Virus record (IMG/VR): IMGVR_UViG_3300010401_000021
Span: 1-41,768 of that record
Length of the DNA stretch: 41,768 nt
Source: a virus
Reading direction: 5' to 3' (one strand)
This document shows positions 1 through 41,768 of this stretch, in pieces. Positions within the stretch are counted from its first letter, which is position 1; each line of letters begins with the position of its first letter. The notes under the pieces were generated by a model. That model was given only the letters and a program-made list of their open reading frames with translations, was not told the origin of the DNA and did no database searches. Both the position numbers and the translations under genes were made by a program.

Positions 1-103
1 AAGTTCTGTTGCACCGCCAACCGCGCCGCATGCTTCAAATTTTGCTTTTTATTGGCGATCGTGGCGAGCACCCCTTCCCCCACGCGCGCATCATCTTCAT
101 GCG
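1..103. repeat. 103-bp terminal direct repeat, left copy
   Basis: The first 103 bases are identical to 41666-41768. The repeat lies inside the portal gene, and joining the two copies restores its reading frame, so the simplest reading is the overlap of a circular or circularly permuted genome. It does not look like a mobile-element repeat. Confidence 0.97.
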
Positions 104-443
104 CGGGGGCTTCCTGGCCCGGCTGCGGGCGAATAAAGAATTTGGGCGCTTGATAGACGAGATTCGGGAGGATGGTCTTCACCGTCGCAAGCGTATGATT
201 GAGCGTGATCTTGCCGCTGCCGACGCTGGCGGCCCCGGTGCCCTTGCCCACATTCGACTGGCGCCCAATAATGAAGTTCTCGCACTTCTCCACCTCATAA
301 TCGCGCTCCCAGTTCTCGCGCACCTTCTTAGCCCGCTCAATGCGCTTCTTCCAGGTGGCAAAGCCCTCGGATTCGGTGCCTTCTGTGCCCAGTCGGCCAG
401 GGGAAGGGGTGTCTTGTGTGTTCGCTTTCTTCTTCTTGGCCAT
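1..443 (-). CDS. Portal protein, N-terminal part (split by the window ends)
   Basis: This is the 5' part of the gene that continues at 41665 and runs down to 40114. Across the junction the frame is exact, giving one protein of about 664 aa. The start ATG at 443 overlaps the terminase stop as TAATG. The N-terminus is lysine-rich (MAKKKKANTQ), followed by a helical region containing WKKRIERAKKVRENWERDY and then FIIGRQSNVGKG and LPNLVYQAPKFFIRP, the usual look of the start of a podovirus portal. Portals form the dodecameric DNA channel at one capsid vertex and dock the terminase, which fits the position directly after the terminase genes. The portal call is firm from context and length; the exact family is inferred. 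Confidence 0.85.
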   Translation of the reverse strand, partial: MAKKKKANTQDTPSPGRLGTEGTESEGFATWKKRIERAKKVRENWERDYEVEKCENFIIGRQSNVGKGTGAASVGSGKITLNHTLATVKTILPNLVYQAPKFFIRPQPGQEAPAHEDDARVGEGVLATIANKKQNLKHAARLAVQQN

Positions 444-1414
444 TAGCCCACCATCTCCCGCTGCATACTGAACGAGGGCGCGGCAGCTTCAGGCGCCTCT
501 TTCGTGGATTCCGCCACCTTCCGCCACCAGGCGAAGCTGTTGGGCTTTTGCTGCGCCAGCTGCTCACGTGGCTTCGGCGGAAAGCGCAGAAAAAAGTATT
601 TCGCGCTGTCCCAGGCGTCATTGTCCTTATCCACCAATTCTTCCGGCTGTGCGGCATCGCGGGACGCCTGCGGCGAGCGGTCCTTATGGCGCTGTAAGCC
701 GATCTCTCGAATCAAATTCGGGCAGGCCAGGGTAATGCGGTACTGTGGATTCAGCGGCTCTTTCCAGTAGTGCCCATGCAGCCATTCCGCCACCATCGTA
801 TCGCCGCCGCGCTCGCCCTTCGTGAAATAGACGCCTTCGTTCATGAAGAGCTTGGCGATGCACTTCATCGTGTTGTCACTCATCACTTGATCTTCCGCCC
901 AAATCGAGGGGTCAGCGATTTTGAACGTCTCTTGCCCGGCATAGGGGTTGCCGGGAAAGCGACGACCATCGGCTAATGTGACGGACTCTCCCTTAATAAT
1001 TTGGGCCAGTTTTGCCACGGGAATGTTGGATCCGTAGGTTTCCCAGAGCGTAACAATTGAACCATCGCCATTAATGCCGTGAACCAAATAGCAGAGCGGA
1101 TGGCGCCAACCGTGATCGTAGGAGCCGAAAAGTTTATAGCCGATGGGATTGAAGAGGGGGACGATAATTTTCCCGTTCGCTTTCCACTGGTCCCATTCCG
1201 GGAAGAGCCGCGTTCCGCCGAGCGCCCCATAATCGACCTCCATCTCCTTCCGCCAGCGTGGGCTCTTCGTGCCGCCGGGATAGCCTTGTGTCGCATCGGC
1301 CAGCCAGGCATCGCCCTCTGGCGTGCCAGGACGCTTTGCGGGATCGGCGCTGTAATGCAAGCGCAGGACAGGAATGCCGCTGGTCGTGAGGCGTTCTGAA
1401 ATGCCGGACTGCAT
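443..1414 (-). CDS. Terminase large subunit, C-terminal nuclease half
   Basis: A 323-aa protein with the second half of a phage terminase large subunit. It begins just before the usual linker sequence (VLRLHYSADPAKRPGTPEG), followed by WRKEMEVDYGALGGTRLFP. It then carries a plausible RNase H-like nuclease triad: D100 in GSYDHG, D168 in KIADPSIW and D266 or D269 in DNDAWD. This half would cut concatemeric DNA during packaging. It contains no ATPase motor; that is encoded separately at 1614-2354. Together the two pieces total 569 aa, the size of an ordinary single-chain terminase, so little appears to be lost. The start ATG overlaps the stop of the preceding 67-aa ORF as TGATG, and its stop overlaps the portal start. 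Confidence 0.85.
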   Translation of the reverse strand: MQSGISERLTTSGIPVLRLHYSADPAKRPGTPEGDAWLADATQGYPGGTKSPRWRKEMEVDYGALGGTRLFPEWDQWKANGKIIVPLFNPIGYKLFGSYDHGWRHPLCYLVHGINGDGSIVTLWETYGSNIPVAKLAQIIKGESVTLADGRRFPGNPYAGQETFKIADPSIWAEDQVMSDNTMKCIAKLFMNEGVYFTKGERGGDTMVAEWLHGHYWKEPLNPQYRITLACPNLIREIGLQRHKDRSPQASRDAAQPEELVDKDNDAWDSAKYFFLRFPPKPREQLAQQKPNSFAWWRKVAESTKEAPEAAAPSFSMQREMVG

Positions 1415-1617
1415 CAGCCCACTTTCCCTTCATCCAGATCCCGCTGGATCACCCGGATGCCCTCTTTCGTGACTTTCAGTTCGTAATCGAATCGCTTGTC
1501 GTGCGGCATGGTCAGCACCGCATGCCCCAGCAGCCCCGCCGTCCAGCGGTCGAGCTGCTCCAATTTCAGCGTGACATCCTTTACTTCGGTCTGAAACATC
1601 GTCTGACTCTTGCTCAT
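1414..1617 (-). CDS. 67-aa protein between the two terminase halves
   Basis: Not recognised. A charged 67-aa protein (MSKSQTMFQTEVKDVTLKLE... GIRVIQRDLDEGKVG) coupled on both sides: ATGA with the ATPase half upstream and TGATG with the nuclease half downstream. A GGAGG ribosome-binding site lies 4 nt before its ATG. It shows none of the histidine/cysteine signature of a homing endonuclease and no catalytic motif I can name. Its strict coupling suggests a co-translated partner that might bridge the two terminase chains, but that is inference. Confidence 0.65.
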   Translation of the reverse strand: MSKSQTMFQTEVKDVTLKLEQLDRWTAGLLGHAVLTMPHDKRFDYELKVTKEGIRVIQRDLDEGKVG

Positions 1618-2354
1618 GCCGCCGCCTCCACGAGTTGCGCAAAGCTGCCGGGCTCCGCACTGGAGATGCCGATAAAACTCCCGCCGCCTTTAATCGCCGG
1701 GAGCGCCGCCGTAAACGCCCCGCCGAACTCCGGCTGAAACGCGGCTTCGTCGCTAAAAATCACGCTGGGGGTATTGGAACGAATAATGTCCTGGCCTTCC
1801 GGCACGCCCCAGATATGCGAGCCGTTCGGCACATAGAGATGCGCAAAGGTGCCGCACTTGGGAAACGTCATGGTGCGGAGATGCAGTGGCAAATGGGATT
1901 CCATAAAGCTGATGCGCGCCACAAAGGGGTCCTTGTTAAACACCAAATTGGCCGCATCTTCTTCCCGCTTGCTTTGCACCAAAATCAATTGGAGTGGGAC
2001 ATATTTGGCGCGCCAGAGGAGGTAGGCGCAGCAGAGCCAGGTGGCCATAATTTGTCTCGACTTTTCCACAAGGCATATACCGGAACTCGACAGTGATTGC
2101 AGCCAGAGGTCGGAGTGACCGGCTGCGCGAGCCCATCGTGCGTCTTGAGCATGCAGCAGCCGCCCACAAACGAGTAAACAGTCGAGCAATGCGCGCAAGT
2201 ACGGGTGAGATGGAAAGGGTTTGATGGGGGAGCCGGTGTCATGTTCATCCTTCGTCATCAGGCCGGAGTCAAAGACGAAATACTGCGCATCACGCCGGCA
2301 GCGTTCGGCGTCGAGCTGCTGGCTGGCCGTCTGTTTCAGCCGCGCACTCGGCAT
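1614..2354 (-). CDS. Terminase large subunit, N-terminal ATPase half
   Basis: A 246-aa protein with the packaging ATPase. After IKPFPSHPYLRALLDCLLV comes a lambda-like, non-canonical Walker A segment (VEKSRQIMATW, residues 96-106, with Lys near the start of the loop), then LILVQSKREEDAANLVF, a Walker B SVIFSDEAA (about 197-205) and the coupling motif ISSAEPGSF (230-238). The chain stops right where the linker to the nuclease domain normally begins. The start ATG at 2354 has a GGAGG site 5 nt upstream. The motor would hydrolyse ATP to push DNA through the portal, and must work with the separately encoded nuclease half at 443-1414. Confidence 0.87.
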   Translation of the reverse strand: MPSARLKQTASQQLDAERCRRDAQYFVFDSGLMTKDEHDTGSPIKPFPSHPYLRALLDCLLVCGRLLHAQDARWARAAGHSDLWLQSLSSSGICLVEKSRQIMATWLCCAYLLWRAKYVPLQLILVQSKREEDAANLVFNKDPFVARISFMESHLPLHLRTMTFPKCGTFAHLYVPNGSHIWGVPEGQDIIRSNTPSVIFSDEAAFQPEFGGAFTAALPAIKGGGSFIGISSAEPGSFAQLVEAAA

Positions 2355-2569
2355 TCAGCCTCCGGATTCTTTCGTAACGTGCGCCGACAGGCCCAACAAC
2401 GATGCCGCTCCTTCCAGGGACGCGATCCCCGGCGCCCGCACCGCAGACAGGTGCGCCGAGTCAACGGCTTCGCACGACGGACATACGCGAGTCGCATGCG
2501 GAGCAGACACTTCCGGCATACCGTCTTTCCCTCGACCGCGTCTGTCCCCGTATGCGTGCTGCACGTCAT
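2336..2569 (-). CDS. Small zinc-ribbon protein upstream of the terminase
   Basis: A 77-aa basic protein with three CxxC pairs (CRKC, CLRCG, CWAC) and many arginines, suggesting one or two zinc-binding knuckles and nucleic-acid binding. Its ATG overlaps the stop of the preceding 41-aa membrane ORF as ATGA, and its tail overlaps the terminase start by 19 nt. A competing frame at 2355-2564 is less protein-like. Function unknown; the position suggests a late gene linked to packaging. Confidence 0.5.
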   Translation of the reverse strand: MTCSTHTGTDAVEGKTVCRKCLLRMRLAYVRRAKPLTRRTCLRCGRRGSRPWKERHRCWACRRTLRKNPEAECRVRG

Positions 2570-2691
2570 TTCTCCAACAGCCGATGCTTCGAGTTTTCCG
2601 TCATGAGCTTGATATTCATCCAGACCGTCACGAGATTGAGCCCCAGGAGAAACAGATTGAGCCCCAGAAAAACGAGATGCCCCATGCTCAT
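2566..2691 (-). CDS. 41-aa single-pass membrane protein
   Basis: A very short gene with a hydrophobic stretch at about residues 5-24 (HLVFLGLNLFLLGLNLVTVW) and a short charged tail ending HRLLEK. It is tied to both neighbours by four-base ATGA overlaps, which is the main evidence that it is real. No family recognised. Confidence 0.5.
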   Translation of the reverse strand: MSMGHLVFLGLNLFLLGLNLVTVWMNIKLMTENSKHRLLEK

Positions 2692-3188: not shown

Positions 3189-3608
3189 TTAGAAACCTCG
3201 AATAAATGGGCTTGGACTGATCATTGATGTCGCCCATGATTGCATCACCTGCTGGCCCCATCGCTGCTGGGACTGAGCGGGCTGCGGCTTCCGGCTCTCA
3301 ATCAACTTCTCCACACTCTGCGCAATCCGTGCCGGAATGTTGTCGGCATATTCAAAGTCCAGCATGGGGATGAGGTCCTTCGGCAGCAGACCAGGGCCGG
3401 TGTTCACGACGGACTGAGTCGGCGGAGCCATGCCGAACAATTGCCCGACTTGGGCTTGTGACATCCCAGATACTTGTAGCGCGTTCATCTGCCGCTGACG
3501 GTTCTGCTCGGCGCTGAGTTGCTGGGCATACGACTGCATGTCCTGTTGACTCAGACCTTGCCCCATCAAGCCATCGAAGATGTTGTGCGCCAATCTACCG
3601 CCCATCAT
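3189..3608 (-). CDS. Gln-rich hypothetical late protein
   Basis: About 139 aa if it starts at the paired ATGs at 3608/3605, which overlap the upstream gene by about 14 nt. A longer reading from 3638 adds arginine- and tryptophan-rich residues that look out of frame. The N-terminal half is rich in Gln and Met (QQDMQSYAQQLSAEQNRQRQ) and probably helical; the C-terminus ends SPSPFIRGF. Such Gln-rich helical proteins often belong to phage particles, but no family is recognised. Confidence 0.6.
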   Translation of the reverse strand: MMGGRLAHNIFDGLMGQGLSQQDMQSYAQQLSAEQNRQRQMNALQVSGMSQAQVGQLFGMAPPTQSVVNTGPGLLPKDLIPMLDFEYADNIPARIAQSVEKLIESRKPQPAQSQQRWGQQVMQSWATSMISPSPFIRGF

Positions 3609-4023
3609 CCACCGCCCCCGCCATCCAGCCCTGCACAATCGCGAGCTGCTCGTTCGTCAAACTCTGTAACCAATTTGCCCCCACCACCTCCGGCCTCGAA
3701 TCCGGCTTGCCGTTCGTATACTGAATCAACCGCGCCGTCTCATCGATCACCTTCGCCGTGTTCGCCATCGTCTTCGAGAGATCCGCCACCGCCGAGACCT
3801 TCACGGTAAAACTGCATTGGCACTCGGGACAGCTCACCGTCTTGTCCTTGTCGCCCGCATACTCGCTCGCATTTAACGCCTTCGCTTGCTTGCGCAACGC
3901 CTCCAACGTCTCCTGCACCGTTTCACTCGCCGTGTCGAGATTAATGCCGCCGTTCGCCACCGCAATCGCCGCATCGAACTGGTCGGTAAAGGTCGAAGCG
4001 CGATCGTTGGATTTACTCGTCAT
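3595..4023 (-). CDS. Zinc-knuckle late protein in the terminase cluster
   Basis: A 142-aa protein with one clear CxxCxC element (VSCPECQCSF, about residues 65-74) between a helical N-terminus (ASETVQETLEALRKQAKAL) and a helical C-terminus (LQSLTNEQLAIVQGWMAG). It could be a packaging accessory or an alternative candidate for a small terminase subunit. The sequence alone does not decide between this and the Nu1-like protein at 4345-4629. Confidence 0.65.
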   Translation of the reverse strand: MTSKSNDRASTFTDQFDAAIAVANGGINLDTASETVQETLEALRKQAKALNASEYAGDKDKTVSCPECQCSFTVKVSAVADLSKTMANTAKVIDETARLIQYTNGKPDSRPEVVGANWLQSLTNEQLAIVQGWMAGAVDDGR

Positions 4024-6808: not shown

Positions 6809-6951
6809 TCCTGCCCCGCCTCATCCCGCTCCACAAAGCGCTCCAGCCAGGCCTCGTCATGGATCACGTTGTAGAGGTCTAGCTCAAACTGGTGAATGTG
6901 CGTAATGGGCATGAACAGCTTGTATTTATCGTAGAACTCATAGCGGTTCAT
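6805..6951 (-). CDS. 48-aa acidic protein after the integrase
   Basis: A short gene (MNRYEFYDKYKLFMPITHIH, then an acidic tail ending DEAGQD) with a strong GGAGG site 7 nt before its ATG, located inside the end of the integrase gene. It converges on the methyltransferase, and the two stop codons overlap. The position is where phages often carry an excisionase, but the protein is acidic and shows no helix-turn-helix, so I do not call it one. Confidence 0.55.
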   Translation of the reverse strand: MNRYEFYDKYKLFMPITHIHQFELDLYNVIHDEAWLERFVERDEAGQD

Positions 6952-7843
6952 GGCTGGCCTCCTGTAATCCCATCAACCAGTCCGCATAACGCTGCATGGG
7001 CTTAGTGAGGGAATCAAACGACTTGAAATAGTAATGCCCCAGCGCCGAGCCTTCGTAATGATTGATGATCGCTTTAATCGTGTGCATGTCGTAGCCCAGC
7101 TCATTGCCCATCACGTTGACCAAGGTGCGCCGCAGATCATAATTCCAGAGGCCATAAATCTTGAGAATCAAGCGCGTCTCATGCCAGCGCAATTTGACTG
7201 CATCACACGTCATCGGCTCATCGAGGCGCTGGCCTGGGAATAGATAGAGACTGGTACTCACCGGCCTGATCGCCTTCCATGCGGCCAGCCACGGCATATA
7301 CTGCGCAGGCAAGGGCAGCTCTTGTGTTTGGCCATTCTTGGTCTTGCCCTTCTGCCACGAGCCCATCTGCCCATAGGGCGTGATCGCCTCAAGCTTCGCC
7401 ATACGGGCTTCTCCTGGCCGGCAGCCCGTGAACAGCATCAGTCCATACAATGCTCGATCACGGATCTCGACGGGAGTGATGGCCCCCGCGAAATAGGTGA
7501 GCAAGGCTTTCAATTCTTCCTGCTTCCCCATGCGCATGCGCTTCGGGGTTTTCAGTTTGCGAATGCCCACCGTGGGATCGCCGCCCGTCCAGCGCTCCCG
7601 ATAGATGCCCCACCGACACGCGGCCCGAATCAAGGCGAGTTCGGTATTCGCTTTCGTCGCGCCCTTTTCATAATGGCCCTGGCAAATGCTCTGCTGCCGT
7701 TGCAGCAATTGCGCGCGCGTCGGCGTACTTGCACAGTGCAGCGCCCACTGGGACGCCACAAAGGACATCTTTTTAAACGAGGAGCGGCCCTTGAGATGTT
7801 CTTCGATATATTGCTTGAGCAGATCAGAAAAGGTGTCACACAT
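6938..7843 (-). CDS. int: Tyrosine integrase
   Basis: A 301-aa tyrosine recombinase that would integrate the phage at a host attachment site. Catalytic pattern: R142 (TGCRPGEAR), K167 or K169, then Y235-D-L-R238 where most family members have HxxR, H262 in INH, and the nucleophile Y271 or Y272 (GHYYF). The first 100 residues form the usual helical core-binding domain. I chose the ATG at 7843 because a GGAGG site lies 8 nt upstream; the frame stays open to 8035 but that extension is not protein-like. The 48-aa gene at 6805-6951 is translationally coupled to its end. Confidence 0.9.
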   Translation of the reverse strand: MCDTFSDLLKQYIEEHLKGRSSFKKMSFVASQWALHCASTPTRAQLLQRQQSICQGHYEKGATKANTELALIRAACRWGIYRERWTGGDPTVGIRKLKTPKRMRMGKQEELKALLTYFAGAITPVEIRDRALYGLMLFTGCRPGEARMAKLEAITPYGQMGSWQKGKTKNGQTQELPLPAQYMPWLAAWKAIRPVSTSLYLFPGQRLDEPMTCDAVKLRWHETRLILKIYGLWNYDLRRTLVNVMGNELGYDMHTIKAIINHYEGSALGHYYFKSFDSLTKPMQRYADWLMGLQEASHEPL

Positions 7844-8038
7844 CCTGGGCCTCCGTGGAGAAGTAAGGCCGCGAGTCTGTGCCTGCCCTGTCGGCCTATG
7901 CAATTCGTGTCGGCTACGTAAGCGCTCCACCGTCAGCCCGTTCTCCATGATCGCCCCATCCTTTCTATTTGTATTCGGTACCCTACCTACATACTGAGAG
8001 TCACCGCACCTCGTTCCGATCACCCGCCCCGTCAAACC
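7844..8038. other. Spacer upstream of integrase, no gene supported
   Basis: About 195 bp between the integrase start and the RHH regulator. It holds an open but unconvincing frame and one GTCAAAC half-site at 8031-8037. An attP site is expected near the integrase but I cannot identify it without a host sequence. Confidence 0.4.
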
Positions 8039-8653: not shown

Positions 8654-8693
8654 CCCGCGCCCAGCTGACACCGACCGCAGAGAGGAGGCAGTT

Positions 8694-8894
8694 ATGACCG
8701 ATCCCCGCACGTCCTTCATGATGCAGCTGTGTCGAGGTGAAGAGAAGGTATTGAAGGAGTTGGCGAGCACGCAGGTCACGCATCCGATGGACCTCTATCA
8801 ACCAGGCAGTGAGCGGTTGGAGAAGTTGTACGCCGCGATGGAGCAAGCGCAGCGGTTTTCATGGCCCAATCAGGGATACGAGGTGAACGTATGA
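8694..8894 (+). CDS. 66-aa hypothetical protein
   Basis: Helical protein (FMMQLCRGEEKVLKELASTQ, then SERLEKLYAAMEQAQRF) with a strong GAGGAGG site before the ATG. It ends by ATGA overlap with the next gene. No family recognised; likely an early accessory protein. Confidence 0.55.
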   Translation: MTDPRTSFMMQLCRGEEKVLKELASTQVTHPMDLYQPGSERLEKLYAAMEQAQRFSWPNQGYEVNV

Positions 8895-9040
8895 AACATG
8901 ATGTCCTCACCGTCGCACTGTATCCAAAACCCAACGTCCACTGGCAGGACGCGCCGCTGTCTGATGTGTGGGCCATCGTCAAGCTCGCCACGCTGGGGGG
9001 CTTGGTGCTGTGGATCTTGGCGGTCTTGGTGATGTTGTGA
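8891..9040 (+). CDS. 49-aa C-terminally anchored membrane protein
   Basis: A short polar N-terminus followed by one membrane helix to the end (AIVKLATLGGLVLWILAVLV). The start overlaps the previous stop by ATGA. Function unknown; the topology suggests an inner-membrane protein with its N-terminal part in the cytoplasm or periplasm. Confidence 0.5.
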   Translation: MKHDVLTVALYPKPNVHWQDAPLSDVWAIVKLATLGGLVLWILAVLVML

Positions 9041-9075
9041 CGCATAACTGCCTTTCAACTGATCATCAGGTAGAC

Positions 9076-9231
9076 ATGGATTATCATTTAGCGTGTCGCC
9101 TTGAGGATGCGTGCCCGTGGGAGACGTGCTCGAAACTGTGGACCCATGCTGGATGGCTGGACCTGATTGAGACGATCAAAACCCTCTCGCCTGAGGCCTA
9201 TGCGGCCCTGAGGAAGGATGTCTTGACATGA
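9076..9231 (+). CDS. 51-aa hypothetical protein
   Basis: Starts MDYHLACRLEDACPWETCSK and ends in a helix ([14 protein letters not shown]). Three cysteines and a histidine could bind metal but no standard spacing is present. ATGA overlap with the next gene supports expression. Confidence 0.45.
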   Translation: MDYHLACRLEDACPWETCSKLWTHAGWLDLIETIKTLSPEAYAALRKDVLT

Positions 9232-9401
9232 TTGACCTAGAACGAGACCTCATCGAAGCCCGCGAGATATTTGAAGGCCGCACGCTGATGATCCCAGAAA
9301 TCCGGCACCTCAAGGCCATGCAAAATCATTTCGACGATAGCCTCATTGTCCTGGCGCTCAAGGCGGCACGGCTGCATGATGACATCATGGCCGCAGATTA
9401 A
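9228..9401 (+). CDS. 57-aa helical hypothetical protein
   Basis: Coupled to the previous gene by ATGA. Almost entirely helix-forming ([20 protein letters not shown], then [20 protein letters not shown]). Not recognised. The HNH gene follows after 10 nt. Confidence 0.45.
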
Positions 9402-9411
9402 GGATAGAACA

Positions 9412-9963
9412 ATGTCCAACCTTTGCGAATGTGGATGCGGACAGCTAGCGCCTATTGCGAAATATAGCAGCAAGTTTCATGGATGGATTAAGGGAAACCC
9501 AAAGCGCTTTATTAGATACCATGCCTCCAAAGTCAATCATGCTAGAGGAGAACAAAGCCATAACTGGCGAGGAGGTCGAACTGAACGAAGCATGGGATAT
9601 ATAGGAGTGTTATGTCATGGACATCCAAGGGCAACGTCGTCAGGCCATGTTCTTGAGCATATACTCATTGCAGAAAAAGCACTCGGTCATATTCTTCCAG
9701 TGAAAGCCAGAGTTCATCATGTCAATGGCCATCGCGGACAAAATACAAATAGCAATTTGGTGATCTGTGAAAATCAGGCCTATCATTTATTGCTTCATCG
9801 GAGGGAGCGAGCCATTCAAGCCGGTGCGCCTCCACATTGGCTCTCTTGTCGATATTGTAAGAACTATGACGCGCCTGAAAATATGTGGGTGGGCATTTCT
9901 CGCCAGCATCATCGGGAATGTCTGAATAATTACCAGAGAACCCAAAGAGAAGTAGGGCGATAA
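9412..9963 (+). CDS. HNH homing-type endonuclease
   Basis: A 183-aa protein. The N-terminus has a CECGCGQ zinc element followed by [14 protein letters not shown]. The nuclease core is [10 protein letters not shown], then [17 protein letters not shown], the catalytic [17 protein letters not shown] and a final [10 protein letters not shown] last CRYC...HHREC pair may bind a second zinc. HNH proteins of this type are usually free-standing homing endonucleases that nick DNA to spread themselves. The codon use is more AT-rich than the neighbours, a sign of separate origin. AAGGA lies 9 nt before the ATG. Confidence 0.8.
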
Positions 9964-10001
9964 ATGATGACCCCCGCCGCCGCGCAGGAGGTGAACGCAT
10001 A

Positions 10002-10187
10002 ATGGATAAGCAATATTTAGGTGATAGCGTCTACGCCGAGTTTGACGGATACCACGTCATCCTCACGACAGAGAATGGATTGCCTGATGATCCAAGCAAT
10101 CGAATTGCCCTAGAGTCACAAGTGATAGCCGCATTAAACAATTATGTTCAATTCATAAAGGAGAAGCATTATGAGAGTGCAGGTTGA
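10002..10187 (+). CDS. 61-aa hypothetical protein
   Basis: MDKQYLGDSVYAEFDGYHVI, then LTTENGLPDDPSNRIALESQ and a terminal helix (VIAALNNYVQFIKEKH). A small single-domain protein often seen among phage early genes; I recognise the type but not a function. Strong AGGAGG site upstream. It overlaps the next start by 17 nt. Confidence 0.6.
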   Translation: MDKQYLGDSVYAEFDGYHVILTTENGLPDDPSNRIALESQVIAALNNYVQFIKEKHYESAG

Positions 10188-10395
10188 GTTGGCATCTACG
10201 CAGGACATTGCAGGACTGAAGGACATTGTTGAGCAATGGGAATCGCAGTTCCCCATGGGGAAATTGGCTGGTGTCAGTGCCTATGGGACATTCCGTATCC
10301 AGCTTGAAATGCCAGAGGCAACAAAGGTGCTTGTTCCACAGATCGTTGACGCACGGAGTAGCGTCGAGCCGCTTCCTGATGCCACTGACCTATAG
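10171..10395 (+). CDS. 74-aa hypothetical protein
   Basis: An alpha/beta mini-protein (MRVQVELASTQDIAGLKDIV, then YGTFRIQLEMPEATKVLVPQ) without a recognisable catalytic motif. It overlaps both neighbours by about 17 nt. Function unknown. Confidence 0.5.
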   Translation: MRVQVELASTQDIAGLKDIVEQWESQFPMGKLAGVSAYGTFRIQLEMPEATKVLVPQIVDARSSVEPLPDATDL

Positions 10396-10564
10396 CGCCG
10401 CGCAGAGGGGCAATGGGGGCCGGCCAACGTGTGTGGATTGCGGCGTACCCTGTGCGTATGACCGGGAGTTCAAAGCTACGAGGCGGTGCCAGAGTTGCTA
10501 TCCGTTTATCCCTTTAACTACTACCGCAAAGGAGTTGATCCATGGAGTCCAGCCAAAGTCCTGA
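10379..10564 (+). CDS. 61-aa zinc-finger protein
   Basis: Carries two CxxC pairs (CVDCG at 18-22 and CQSCY at 37-41) 16 residues apart, typical of a small treble-clef or ribbon domain that binds nucleic acid. The ATG at 10379 gives a compact protein; the same frame is open upstream but that part overlaps the 74-aa gene and is not protein-like. Its tail overlaps the ERF gene start. Confidence 0.5.
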   Translation: MPLTYSAAQRGNGGRPTCVDCGVPCAYDREFKATRRCQSCYPFIPLTTTAKELIHGVQPKS

Positions 10565-11261
10565 AATCGATAAGCTTGCGGGGGCCATTGTTCGGGCACA
10601 GGTCAAGCTGATGCCTGCCAAAAAGGACGCGACCAATCCGTTCTTTCACTCCAAATATGCGGATCTCTCCTCGGTCTGGACAGCCCTGCTCCCATTCCGC
10701 AACGAAGAGATTGCCATTACCCAGAGTCCCATGGAGTCACCGGATGGGCATATCCTGCTGGAAACTCAGCTCACCCATAGCAGCGGCCAGTGGATGCGCA
10801 GCTGTCTTAAGATGCGTGTCGCCAAGGACGATCCTCAAGGGGCAGGGAGTGCGCTGACCTATGCGAGGCGCTATGCGCTGGGCTGCATGACTGGGTTAGT
10901 GACGGAAGAGGATGACGATGGAAATTCAGCATCGATCAAACATTCGGCGCAGATAGATGCAGCAGCTCCCCGCGGAGGGCAAAGGTCTCAGGTCGGGGCG
11001 TTGCTTCCCAGGACGGAGCCAGAGCTGGCGAACCATGTGAAATCCTGCGCCCCTGTTGCGAAGTGGGTTGTGCCCTTTGGGAAAATGAAGGGCCAGCCCA
11101 TTAGCGATGTGTCCGACGATGACGTGGATTATCTCCTGCGGTATTACACCACCAAGCTGCAAGACGCGGCGAATGCGACCTCTCGGTATCGAGACGAGTG
11201 GGAGAACGCCATTATGGAAATTCGTGCAGAGCAACTCTATAGGACGCCGGTCACAGCCTGA
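10542..11261 (+). CDS. erf: ERF-family single-strand annealing protein
   Basis: A 239-aa recombinase of the ERF superfamily: NPFFHSKYADLSSVWTALLP, then QLTHSSGQWMRSCLKM, and the hallmark GSALTYARRYALGCMTGL followed by EEDDDGN. These form oligomeric rings that anneal complementary single strands during phage recombination and replication restart. The C-terminal segment (VPFGKMKGQPISDVSDDDVD, then YLLRYY) is the small DUF3820-like domain often fused to phage recombination and nuclease proteins. Works with the RusA-like resolvase at 11955-12377. Confidence 0.88.
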   Translation: MESSQSPEIDKLAGAIVRAQVKLMPAKKDATNPFFHSKYADLSSVWTALLPFRNEEIAITQSPMESPDGHILLETQLTHSSGQWMRSCLKMRVAKDDPQGAGSALTYARRYALGCMTGLVTEEDDDGNSASIKHSAQIDAAAPRGGQRSQVGALLPRTEPELANHVKSCAPVAKWVVPFGKMKGQPISDVSDDDVDYLLRYYTTKLQDAANATSRYRDEWENAIMEIRAEQLYRTPVTA

Positions 11262-39864: not shown

Positions 39865-40114
39865 CGCCGCTCGAAATTTGCTTAAGGTAAAACCCGTTCG
39901 GCGCATGCACGCCCTCAAATCCGGCGTTCAAACCCACATAGTTCTGGACATCGTTCGCCCGTCCGCGCCAGAGCCGCGCCCCACTCACCGGATCGGCAAT
40001 TTCCGCCGTATCGCCCGCCGTACTCGGGCCTTCCCAGACAAAGGCCAAAATGCGTGCCCCTTGGAGGTATCGATCGCCTGCCACTTGCATCCGAATGGGT
40101 CCAATGTTGGGCAT
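39836..40114 (-). CDS. 92-aa structural-type protein after the portal
   Basis: MPNIGPIRMQVAGDRYLQGA, then RILAFVWEGPSTAGDTAEI and SSGDVYVYLREN. A compact beta protein, coupled to the portal by TAATG. Such a gene beside the portal may encode a head-neck accessory. Confidence 0.55.
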   Translation of the reverse strand: MPNIGPIRMQVAGDRYLQGARILAFVWEGPSTAGDTAEIADPVSGARLWRGRANDVQNYVGLNAGFEGVHAPNGFYLKQISSGDVYVYLREN

Positions 40115-41768
40115 TACATCCCTCCCGAGACACCAGACAAGGCGGCATCGCTGGTCATCGCACCCGGCTGCTCCCCGCCGCCGTTTGCACTGCCACCTTG
40201 ATTGCGTCCCGCTTGATTCGCATTCACTTGCACCATCTTTTGCGAGAGCGCCACGAGTTCATCGACGAGGCGGGTATTCGTAATTTCAAACATCTCGGCA
40301 ATCTGCGTCATGAGCTGCTTGCTCATCGCCAGTTGCGGGGCTTGCCCCAAGAGTTGCAGGAAGGACATGAACGATCGGCGCTCCACATCCAAATTCTTCG
40401 GGCGTGAACTGCCAGGGACCACGGTCACATCCGCGTCAAAATCTAACTCTTCGCGTGTAATGGGCTTCCACGTTTCTTGCCCAAAATGGCTCATCAGTAA
40501 TTCTTTGGCACCAGGGATTTGCTTCAGGATGCTGGGATCAACCTGATATTCCTCCATGACATATTTATCGAACTCCTCATCCGAAAATCCGCGCAACTTC
40601 ACCCAAATCTTGAGCGTGAGCGTGTCGCGCACGAGTTGATACATCTTCGTGCCGGCCACGGTCAGCCAATCATTCACGGCGTCTTGCAAATCGGCATCAC
40701 GCAAGTTCGCCGCGCGCTCGACAAAGGTCGCTTCCGTCGCCGTATCGGCGTCCGGACCCGCTAAGCGTGCGCCGGTCTGCCCGGTGATGATGCGCCAGTC
40801 ATTCATGATCAGCGGGATGTCTTTATAGATGGCCGCATTGATATCGGGCGTCTGCAAAATGAGAGGCGGTCGGCTGATGTCGTTCAGTTTGGCCCCCACC
40901 ATGTCTTGAGGGTTCTGCAACAGCTTCGCCGCCTCGTCTTGGTTCGGAAAGGTATTGTCGTCGTAGACAAATTTGCGGGCGGAACGTTTCGCGCCCTCCA
41001 TAATCTGCTGCCGACGAATGTTGTATTCATCCTGCGGCCCCAGCCAGTCCTTGACGTAGGGATAGGGCCAGGGGAGGGGGTCAGGACCGAGAATGGGGGT
41101 GAAGCCGCCCAAAATGGCATAGGGATGCTCGCTAATGCCCTTGGGCAACGGACGATTCACCAAGTATTCTGAAAATTCCTGCCCATCGGCCCACATGAGC
41201 TGACGGGCTTTCTTGATATCGTAGACTTCATAGTATTTAAAGAGCGGGTCGGGTTCCTCCACCACCTTGGCCCTCGATTGCCGTGAGGCACTGCTGGAGA
41301 CTTCGGTGATATTCGCATTAAACTGCTCGCGCAAGTCCTTCGGAAACCGATCATCCTCTTTCGCCTCCGCCAAGGGCACGACAATTTCCTCGCCGACCCA
41401 CGTCCATTTGCTGGGATCAGGCCCTTCATCGGGCAACAGCATGAACCGTGCATCCACCCACTCCCAGCGGTACAGATCCTCACGCAAAATCTTCTCCGGC
41501 TCGACCAAGGGCGAACCATCGAGCGGGTTTTTCATTTGAATCGTCTGGCCAAAGTCGTCATGCAAGGCATTCCCGTTCGCATCCTTCGCCATAATCGGCT
41601 CGCCGGCATCCGGATTCGGCACCATGTCGGGGTCATAGCAGACTTTGAGCACGCCGATGCGGGAGAAGTTCTGTTGCACCGCCAACCGCGCCGCATGCTT
41701 CAAATTTTGCTTTTTATTGGCGATCGTGGCGAGCACCCCTTCCCCCACGCGCGCATCATCTTCATGCG
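40114..41768 (-). CDS. Portal protein, C-terminal part (runs off the window end)
   Basis: The rest of the portal gene that begins at 443. It contains RWEWVDARFMLLPDEGPDPS, KYYEVYDIKKARQLMWADGQ, PWPYPYVKDWLGPQDEYNIR, the wing/stem region ARLAGPDADTATEATFVERA and RDTLTLKIWVKLRGFSDEEF, with a Gln/Asn/Gly-rich tail. The length of the joined protein (about 664 aa) is in the range of podovirus portals. In the window it has no start; the true start is at 443 across the junction. Confidence 0.85.
   Translation of the reverse strand, partial: HEDDARVGEGVLATIANKKQNLKHAARLAVQQNFSRIGVLKVCYDPDMVPNPDAGEPIMAKDANGNALHDDFGQTIQMKNPLDGSPLVEPEKILREDLYRWEWVDARFMLLPDEGPDPSKWTWVGEEIVVPLAEAKEDDRFPKDLREQFNANITEVSSSASRQSRAKVVEEPDPLFKYYEVYDIKKARQLMWADGQEFSEYLVNRPLPKGISEHPYAILGGFTPILGPDPLPWPYPYVKDWLGPQDEYNIRRQQIMEGAKRSARKFVYDDNTFPNQDEAAKLLQNPQDMVGAKLNDISRPPLILQTPDINAAIYKDIPLIMNDWRIITGQTGARLAGPDADTATEATFVERAANLRDADLQDAVNDWLTVAGTKMYQLVRDTLTLKIWVKLRGFSDEEFDKYVMEEYQVDPSILKQIPGAKELLMSHFGQETWKPITREELDFDADVTVVPGSSRPKNLDVERRSFMSFLQLLGQAPQLAMSKQLMTQIAEMFEITNTRLVDELVALSQKMVQVNANQAGRNQGGSANGGGEQPGAMTSDAALSGVSGGM
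41666..41768. repeat. 103-bp terminal direct repeat, right copy
   Basis: Exact copy of 1-103. Removing one copy gives a 41,665-bp circle. A short exact overlap of this kind is typical of an assembler reporting a circular molecule. True packaged terminal repeats are also possible but would not be expected to fall in the middle of the portal gene. Confidence 0.97.

Follow-up and report, generated by a model that had tools for sequence, protein, structure and literature searches.

In tailed phages, the large terminase (TerL) is regarded as a motor made of a single chain and, as such, as a universal marker. The window analyzed here, the full 41,768 bp of a phage genome, carries the motor's ATPase and nuclease activities in separate ORFs with a 67-aa ORF between them. 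The locus raises the question of whether a packaging motor can be built from two chains, or whether these ORFs are the pieces of a single chain that is interrupted, rejoined, or broken. From the conservation of both halves, the position of the cut, and the gene order in relatives, we conclude that the phage very probably encodes a natural two-chain large terminase, whose chains would join noncovalently and act as one ring subunit, the split being inherited in a large clade.

The terminase locus of a complete phage genome

Because the window has 103-bp direct terminal repeats and its portal gene crosses the ends, the genome is complete. The terminase region lies on the minus strand in the order ATPase ORF (chain 1), 67-aa ORF, lid-plus-nuclease ORF (chain 2), and portal gene (Table 1). 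A first-pass annotation, made from the letters alone, had described three coupled ORFs here, and its coordinates, strand, and lengths (246, 67, and 323 aa) are correct. Chain 1 overlaps the 67-aa ORF by 4 nt (ATGA, 1614-1617), which in turn overlaps chain 2 by 1 nt (TGATG, around 1414). The same genome encodes a portal and a major head protein. The phage is probably temperate, since it also carries a tyrosine integrase gene (6938-8035, minus strand; PF00589, E = 1e-10). Upstream of the ATPase gene, in the usual small-terminase position, lies a conserved ORF without a family match (3595-4023, minus strand). A membrane-like ORF of ∼41 aa with a single span (...NIKxLTENxKHxLLxK) is found just before the ATPase gene in the window (2566-2691, minus strand) and in relatives L003 (1538-1702) and L011 (7852-7998); in L019 (3618-3743), it follows the ATPase gene, within the terminase junction.

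Table 1. Features of the terminase region in the window
Feature	Position	Strand	Evidence or remarks
TerL chain 1, putative ASCE ATPase core, 246 aa	1614..2354	-	PHROG_2, T4 gp17, and Foldseek 2o0h matches; dN/dS
Deviant Walker A/P-loop arginine, K98-S-R-Q-I-M-A-T-W106 (KSRQIMATW)	2037..2063	-	K98, S99, R100 invariant in 36 sequences
Walker B/catalytic carboxylate, D202-E203	1746..1751	-	Invariant in 36 sequences; aligned to gp17 D255-E256
Coupling motif III, S231-S232-A233	1656..1664	-	S/T, S/T, A in 36 sequences; aligns beside gp17 TTTPNG 285-290
67-aa ORF in junction	1414..1617	-	Homologs at terminase junction of L002, L003, L004; dN/dS
TerL chain 2, putative lid (subdomain II), hinge, and RNase H-fold nuclease, 323 aa	443..1414	-	Foldseek D6E and P22 4dkw; dN/dS
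Chain 2 N-terminal segment, residues 1-70, aligned to gp17 303-364; putative lid and preceding part	1205..1414	-	Profile-profile alignment
Nuclease catalytic D100	1115..1117	-	Invariant in 36 sequences
Nuclease catalytic D168	911..913	-	Invariant in 36 sequences
Nuclease catalytic D269	608..610	-	Invariant in 36 sequences
Portal gene start, running over the contig ends into 41748-40114	1..442	-	Reading continuous across ends
Remainder of portal gene (P22-like), following chain 2 on the circular map	40114..41748	-	PF16510, E = 3e-7; PHROG_156, E = 6e-12

Each chain carries one half of a large terminase

The ATPase half matches the PHROG_2 terminase family (E = 5e-8) and, by PDB profile, T4 gp17 (E = 3e-11). 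Its AlphaFold model (pLDDT of 92) fits the gp17 ATPase domain (Foldseek, 2o0h, E = 2e-10). The nuclease half alone matched no Pfam or PHROG family in HMM searches and gave no significant hhalign match to T4 gp17, so that the profile search of both halves proposed in the first-pass annotation identifies the ATPase half. In Foldseek, however, the predicted fold of the nuclease half resembles terminase nucleases (D6E TerL, E = 1e-8; P22 4dkw, E = 2e-7; also G20c). Walker A, the DE pair, and the coupling motif of an ASCE ATPase all lie in chain 1 and the three acidic residues of an RNase H-fold nuclease in chain 2, as that annotation had it, except that the Walker A motif is deviant (KSRQ). No substitution was seen across 36 diverse members of the family, including those with reversed gene order described below, at K98, S99, R100, D202, or E203 in chain 1 or at D100, D168, or D269 in chain 2.

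The two domains are encoded not in one polypeptide but in separate ORFs with separate starts, and the protein pair is a TerL homologue in both halves, in two-chain form. Anti-Shine-Dalgarno pairing is stronger at chain 2 starts than at internal ATG/GTG codons (p = 4e-5), most so in the class with overlapping ORFs. PHROG_2 finds one ATPase place per record in 12 records and no second terminase place in the window genome; in L064 and L082, it matches each half separately, ∼2.4 kb apart. A phi29-type packaging ATPase would be expected in a genome without a terminase nuclease, but the window and 10 of 10 reversed-order records tested do carry a TerL nuclease gene, each of these ten records having one nuclease place.

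The cut falls inside the ATPase domain

A large terminase consists of an ATPase domain, itself built from an ASCE core and a lid, followed by a linker and a nuclease domain (PMC5727402). The first-pass annotation had placed the split exactly at the boundary between the ATPase and nuclease domains, but PDB profile, Foldseek, and hhalign comparisons put it elsewhere. When the halves were joined in silico and aligned by profile with nine T4-like TerLs (hhalign, E = 4e-25), the cut mapped to residue ∼302 of gp17, with the first 70 residues of chain 2 aligned to gp17 303-364. On this alignment, the cut separates the ASCE core from the lid, hinge, and nuclease; it lies inside the ATPase domain, just after coupling motif III, and chain 1 ends ∼10 residues past that motif. 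We take the gp17 lid to span about residues 314-360; judged from the joined-halves profile, the first ∼70 residues of chain 2 would thus be the lid and the segment preceding it. AlphaFold predicts residues 1 to 70 of chain 2 with modest confidence, which fits a missing partner but is no proof of one. In the close clade, chain 1 ends in ...SSAEPGxFxxLVEA and chain 2 starts with ...G(L/I)xxRxTxxGIPVLRxHYSADP; in distant members, the cut is within some residues of the same site.

The split is shared by a large clade

IMG/VR protein and profile scans, plus one GTDB genome scan, yielded more than 100 loci, and six-frame translations of all of them were searched with separate profiles for the two halves; loci known to share a contig were merged before counting. 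The ATPase peptide patterns sit inside the ATPase half, so the search should not favor split over fused genes. Both halves were found, in counts of metagenomic contigs that depend on the peptide patterns used, as separate ORFs in the order ATPase-nuclease in 53 contigs (including L122, scored as split but ambiguous, its contig beginning inside the gene), in the order nuclease-ATPase in 37, and fused in 3 (L013, L112, and L123). Outside this tally stand 12 ATPase-only and 10 nuclease-only loci, several of them cut by contig ends or belonging to single-chain phage records. At 97% identity, 61 contigs remain (39 ATPase-nuclease, 19 reversed, and 3 fused), 58 of them split.

All members are uncultured contigs or MAGs; the three loci found on MAG contigs carry the labels Betaproteobacteria, Latescibacterota, and Acidobacteria. 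When 50,697 phage records were searched by tblastn with the two halves from the window, the ATPase matched nothing and the nuclease gave a single weak match. Terminases are single-chain in the nearest annotated phage records that were inspected, and none of the cultured phages examined has the two-protein arrangement.

In a tree of the concatenated halves (IQ-TREE), window-type and reversed members form one clade of 58 (UFBoot, 98), within which the reversed members are monophyletic (UFBoot, 100; range, 98 to 100). The first-pass annotation had weighed whether the 67-aa ORF might be a decayed insert in a gene that relatives keep fused. That pattern was not found: the sole close fused relative, L013 (2834-4564), an intact frame whose join is lengthened by a linker of ∼10 additional residues, falls within the split members as sister to L088 (support, 88) and for that reason is most simply a refusion. 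Fused L112 is also nested, with unstable placement, and fused L123 is a distant outgroup. Readthrough was considered for L064 and rejected, stops occurring throughout the frame between its halves, which are therefore split. The L064 interval (8675-11043) holds two large paralogous ORFs (65% identical, starting MGWRK) and further genes.

The halves of the 37 reversed contigs are on the same strand, 1.2 to 2.1 kb apart. Frameshifting, readthrough, and cis-splicing are all unable to join halves in this order, and because of the reversal the halves must, on the evidence of gene order, work in trans. In the reversed members, the nuclease and ATPase genes are separated by two others (L010, 4771-5340 and 5337-5999), one for a ∼190-aa protein without known function and one for a small terminase that matches PHROG_51 (E = 1e-13).

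In comparisons of the window with the three relatives nearest to it, dN/dS was 0.04 to 0.13 for the ATPase half, 0.054 to 0.062 for the nuclease half, and 0.13 to 0.23 for the 67-aa ORF, values that indicate purifying selection on both terminase halves. Given these low values and the recurrence of the same site in dozens of contigs, the split is, as far as sequence comparison can tell, more than chance.

The junction accepts unrelated genes

The gap between the halves ranges from −15 nt (short overlaps) to 2,368 nt, and in about a dozen relatives, among them L088, the two ORFs overlap directly. The 67-aa ORF of the window recurs only in L002, L003, and L004 (the same contig as L011), where it has homologs of 73 to 79% at the junction. 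This ORF has no significant Pfam or PHROG match, and an IMG/VR search found its family nowhere beyond the terminase junction. The L003 junction additionally holds 72-aa and 104-aa ORFs and that of L004 a 61-aa ORF; the remaining junction ORFs are mostly unrelated to one another. HNH_3 endonuclease ORFs occupy the junction in L023 and L085, and a GIY-YIG-like ORF, just under the Pfam threshold, occupies it in L019. The window junction contains the 67-aa ORF only, so that the first-pass statement that no HNH insertion is seen holds for the window but not for its relatives. Its companion statement, that there is no intron, agrees with an Rfam search, which matched nothing in the window or 16 relatives. 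Insertion of a homing endonuclease is, by analogy with Aeh1 nrdA, a plausible origin of the split; the endonucleases may instead be latecomers to a preexisting split.

Other readings of the locus

We considered whether the mature product might still be one chain. The junction could be an intron, like the group I introns of Jug phages, or an intein, like those of Mic1; both kinds of element are known to target terL (PMC12363816; PMC7156551; ICP1, PMC9040626), and the endonuclease ORFs in some junctions point the same way. However, no group I or II intron was found at the junction, the short overlaps of many relatives leave no intron space, neither chain has an intein-sized extension, and the order is reversed in 37 contigs, which together make this reading extremely unlikely. 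A fused, active chain could also arise if some ribosomes shifted frame, for which the direct overlaps in about a dozen relatives and the intact fused frame of L013 can be cited. Such shifting would require two events over the 201-nt ORF in the window, would have to accommodate a variable gap, is impossible in the reversed order, and sits poorly with the start and ribosome-binding signal of chain 2 itself; we regard it as very unlikely.

The first-pass annotation had proposed that the 67-aa protein bridges the chains, making it a third motor subunit. Its position, translational coupling, and conservation in four contigs favor this role, but its homologs are confined to that small group, and the junctions of the other split members hold unrelated ORFs or none. 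Because the junction accepts unrelated genes, it looks like a gene boundary rather than the place of a bridging subunit; the 67-aa ORF appears to be junction cargo, and a bridging role is improbable. That the arrangement reflects an assembly error or a decaying, nonfunctional terminase is suggested solely by its oddity and is hardly credible: the same junction recurs in independent metagenomes, the genome is complete with its end repeats, both halves are under purifying selection, and the genome has no second PHROG_2 terminase place.

Evidence against a two-chain motor comes from T4, in which gp17 cut at the hinge kept both activities but lost translocation (PMC3012670, PMC9958956). By analogy, this result counts against the present reading, although the natural cut lies elsewhere; it may be tolerated since the lid, hinge, and nuclease stay continuous. 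The two-chain terminase, proposed in the first-pass annotation as a working motor, is nevertheless strongly supported by comparative evidence: the constant site, purifying selection, invariant catalytic residues, and the reversed-order clade.

A model for a two-chain packaging motor

In the two-chain terminase that we propose, chain 1 would be the ATP-hydrolyzing ASCE core, and chain 2 would contribute the lid ("transmission"), hinge, and nuclease. The chains would meet after translation, noncovalently, the N-terminal ∼70 residues of chain 2 capping the ATP cleft of chain 1, and each pair would form one subunit of the packaging ring. R100, the P-loop arginine, would sense the lid on the other chain; its D6E counterpart contacts the lid (PMC5727402). 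Physical association, a 1:1 ring stoichiometry, lid capping in trans, and normal packaging are what we infer from this comparison. The split would go back to one event or a few, close to the root of a large clade of small podovirus-like phages, and would have been inherited since. The site that it opened now holds small genes or homing endonucleases, or is empty, and the two terminase genes would have swapped order in one clade.

A natural core/lid cut kept across a large clade offers a direct test of motor models. It suggests that the link between core and lid need not be covalent, in contrast to the artificial T4 hinge split, and it is surprising, since the well-studied T4 motor no longer worked once it had been cut in two. 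It is doubtful, though conceivable, that this is a lineage-wide motor in which force passes across a noncovalent interface and loading, exchange, or release of the cutting subunit does not depend on the pumping ring; such a chain could, for example, join only at initiation and termination or be present in fewer than five copies. Annotation is affected too: searches that expect a single chain detect just one half of such terminases, and the nuclease half of the window went unmatched in Pfam and PHROGs.

Comparison with known systems

With T4 gp17 (3CPE, 2O0H) and T4-like TerLs, the window pair shares the core fold, DE pair, motif III, lid, RNase H nuclease, and linear order, but gp17 is one chain of 610 aa and the pair is cut at the equivalent of residues ∼302/303. 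The uncultured podoviruses MW202803 and MW202795 have genomes of ∼42 kb and weak similarity (26 to 31%) to the halves of marine members, but their TerLs are single ORFs (560 and 504 aa). Looking for descriptions of a two-gene terminase motor in the open-access literature, we found intron or intein cases only. Intron-split terL genes (Jug phages; ICP1 Gp129-128) likewise occupy two or more ORFs. There, splicing restores a single chain, as shown by RNA reads in Jug phages and as the authors expect for an ICP1-type relative (PMC12363816, PMC9040626); here, no intron was found, and the reversed order rules out cis-splicing. Genes in pieces (Aeh1 nrdA/mobE, T4 gene 60/mobA, and phage 25 gene 43) also divide an essential phage enzyme between two chains; nrdA retains activity in its split form, and the halves of phage 25 gene 43 copurify (PMC2988022). 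The endonuclease-like ORFs at the junction of three relatives add to the likeness, but the enzyme is another one, and the terminase split marks a deep clade in which most members lack an endonuclease and one subclade is reversed. The closest precedents are genes in pieces, exemplified by Aeh1 nrdA, and the intron-split terL of Jug phages and ICP1.
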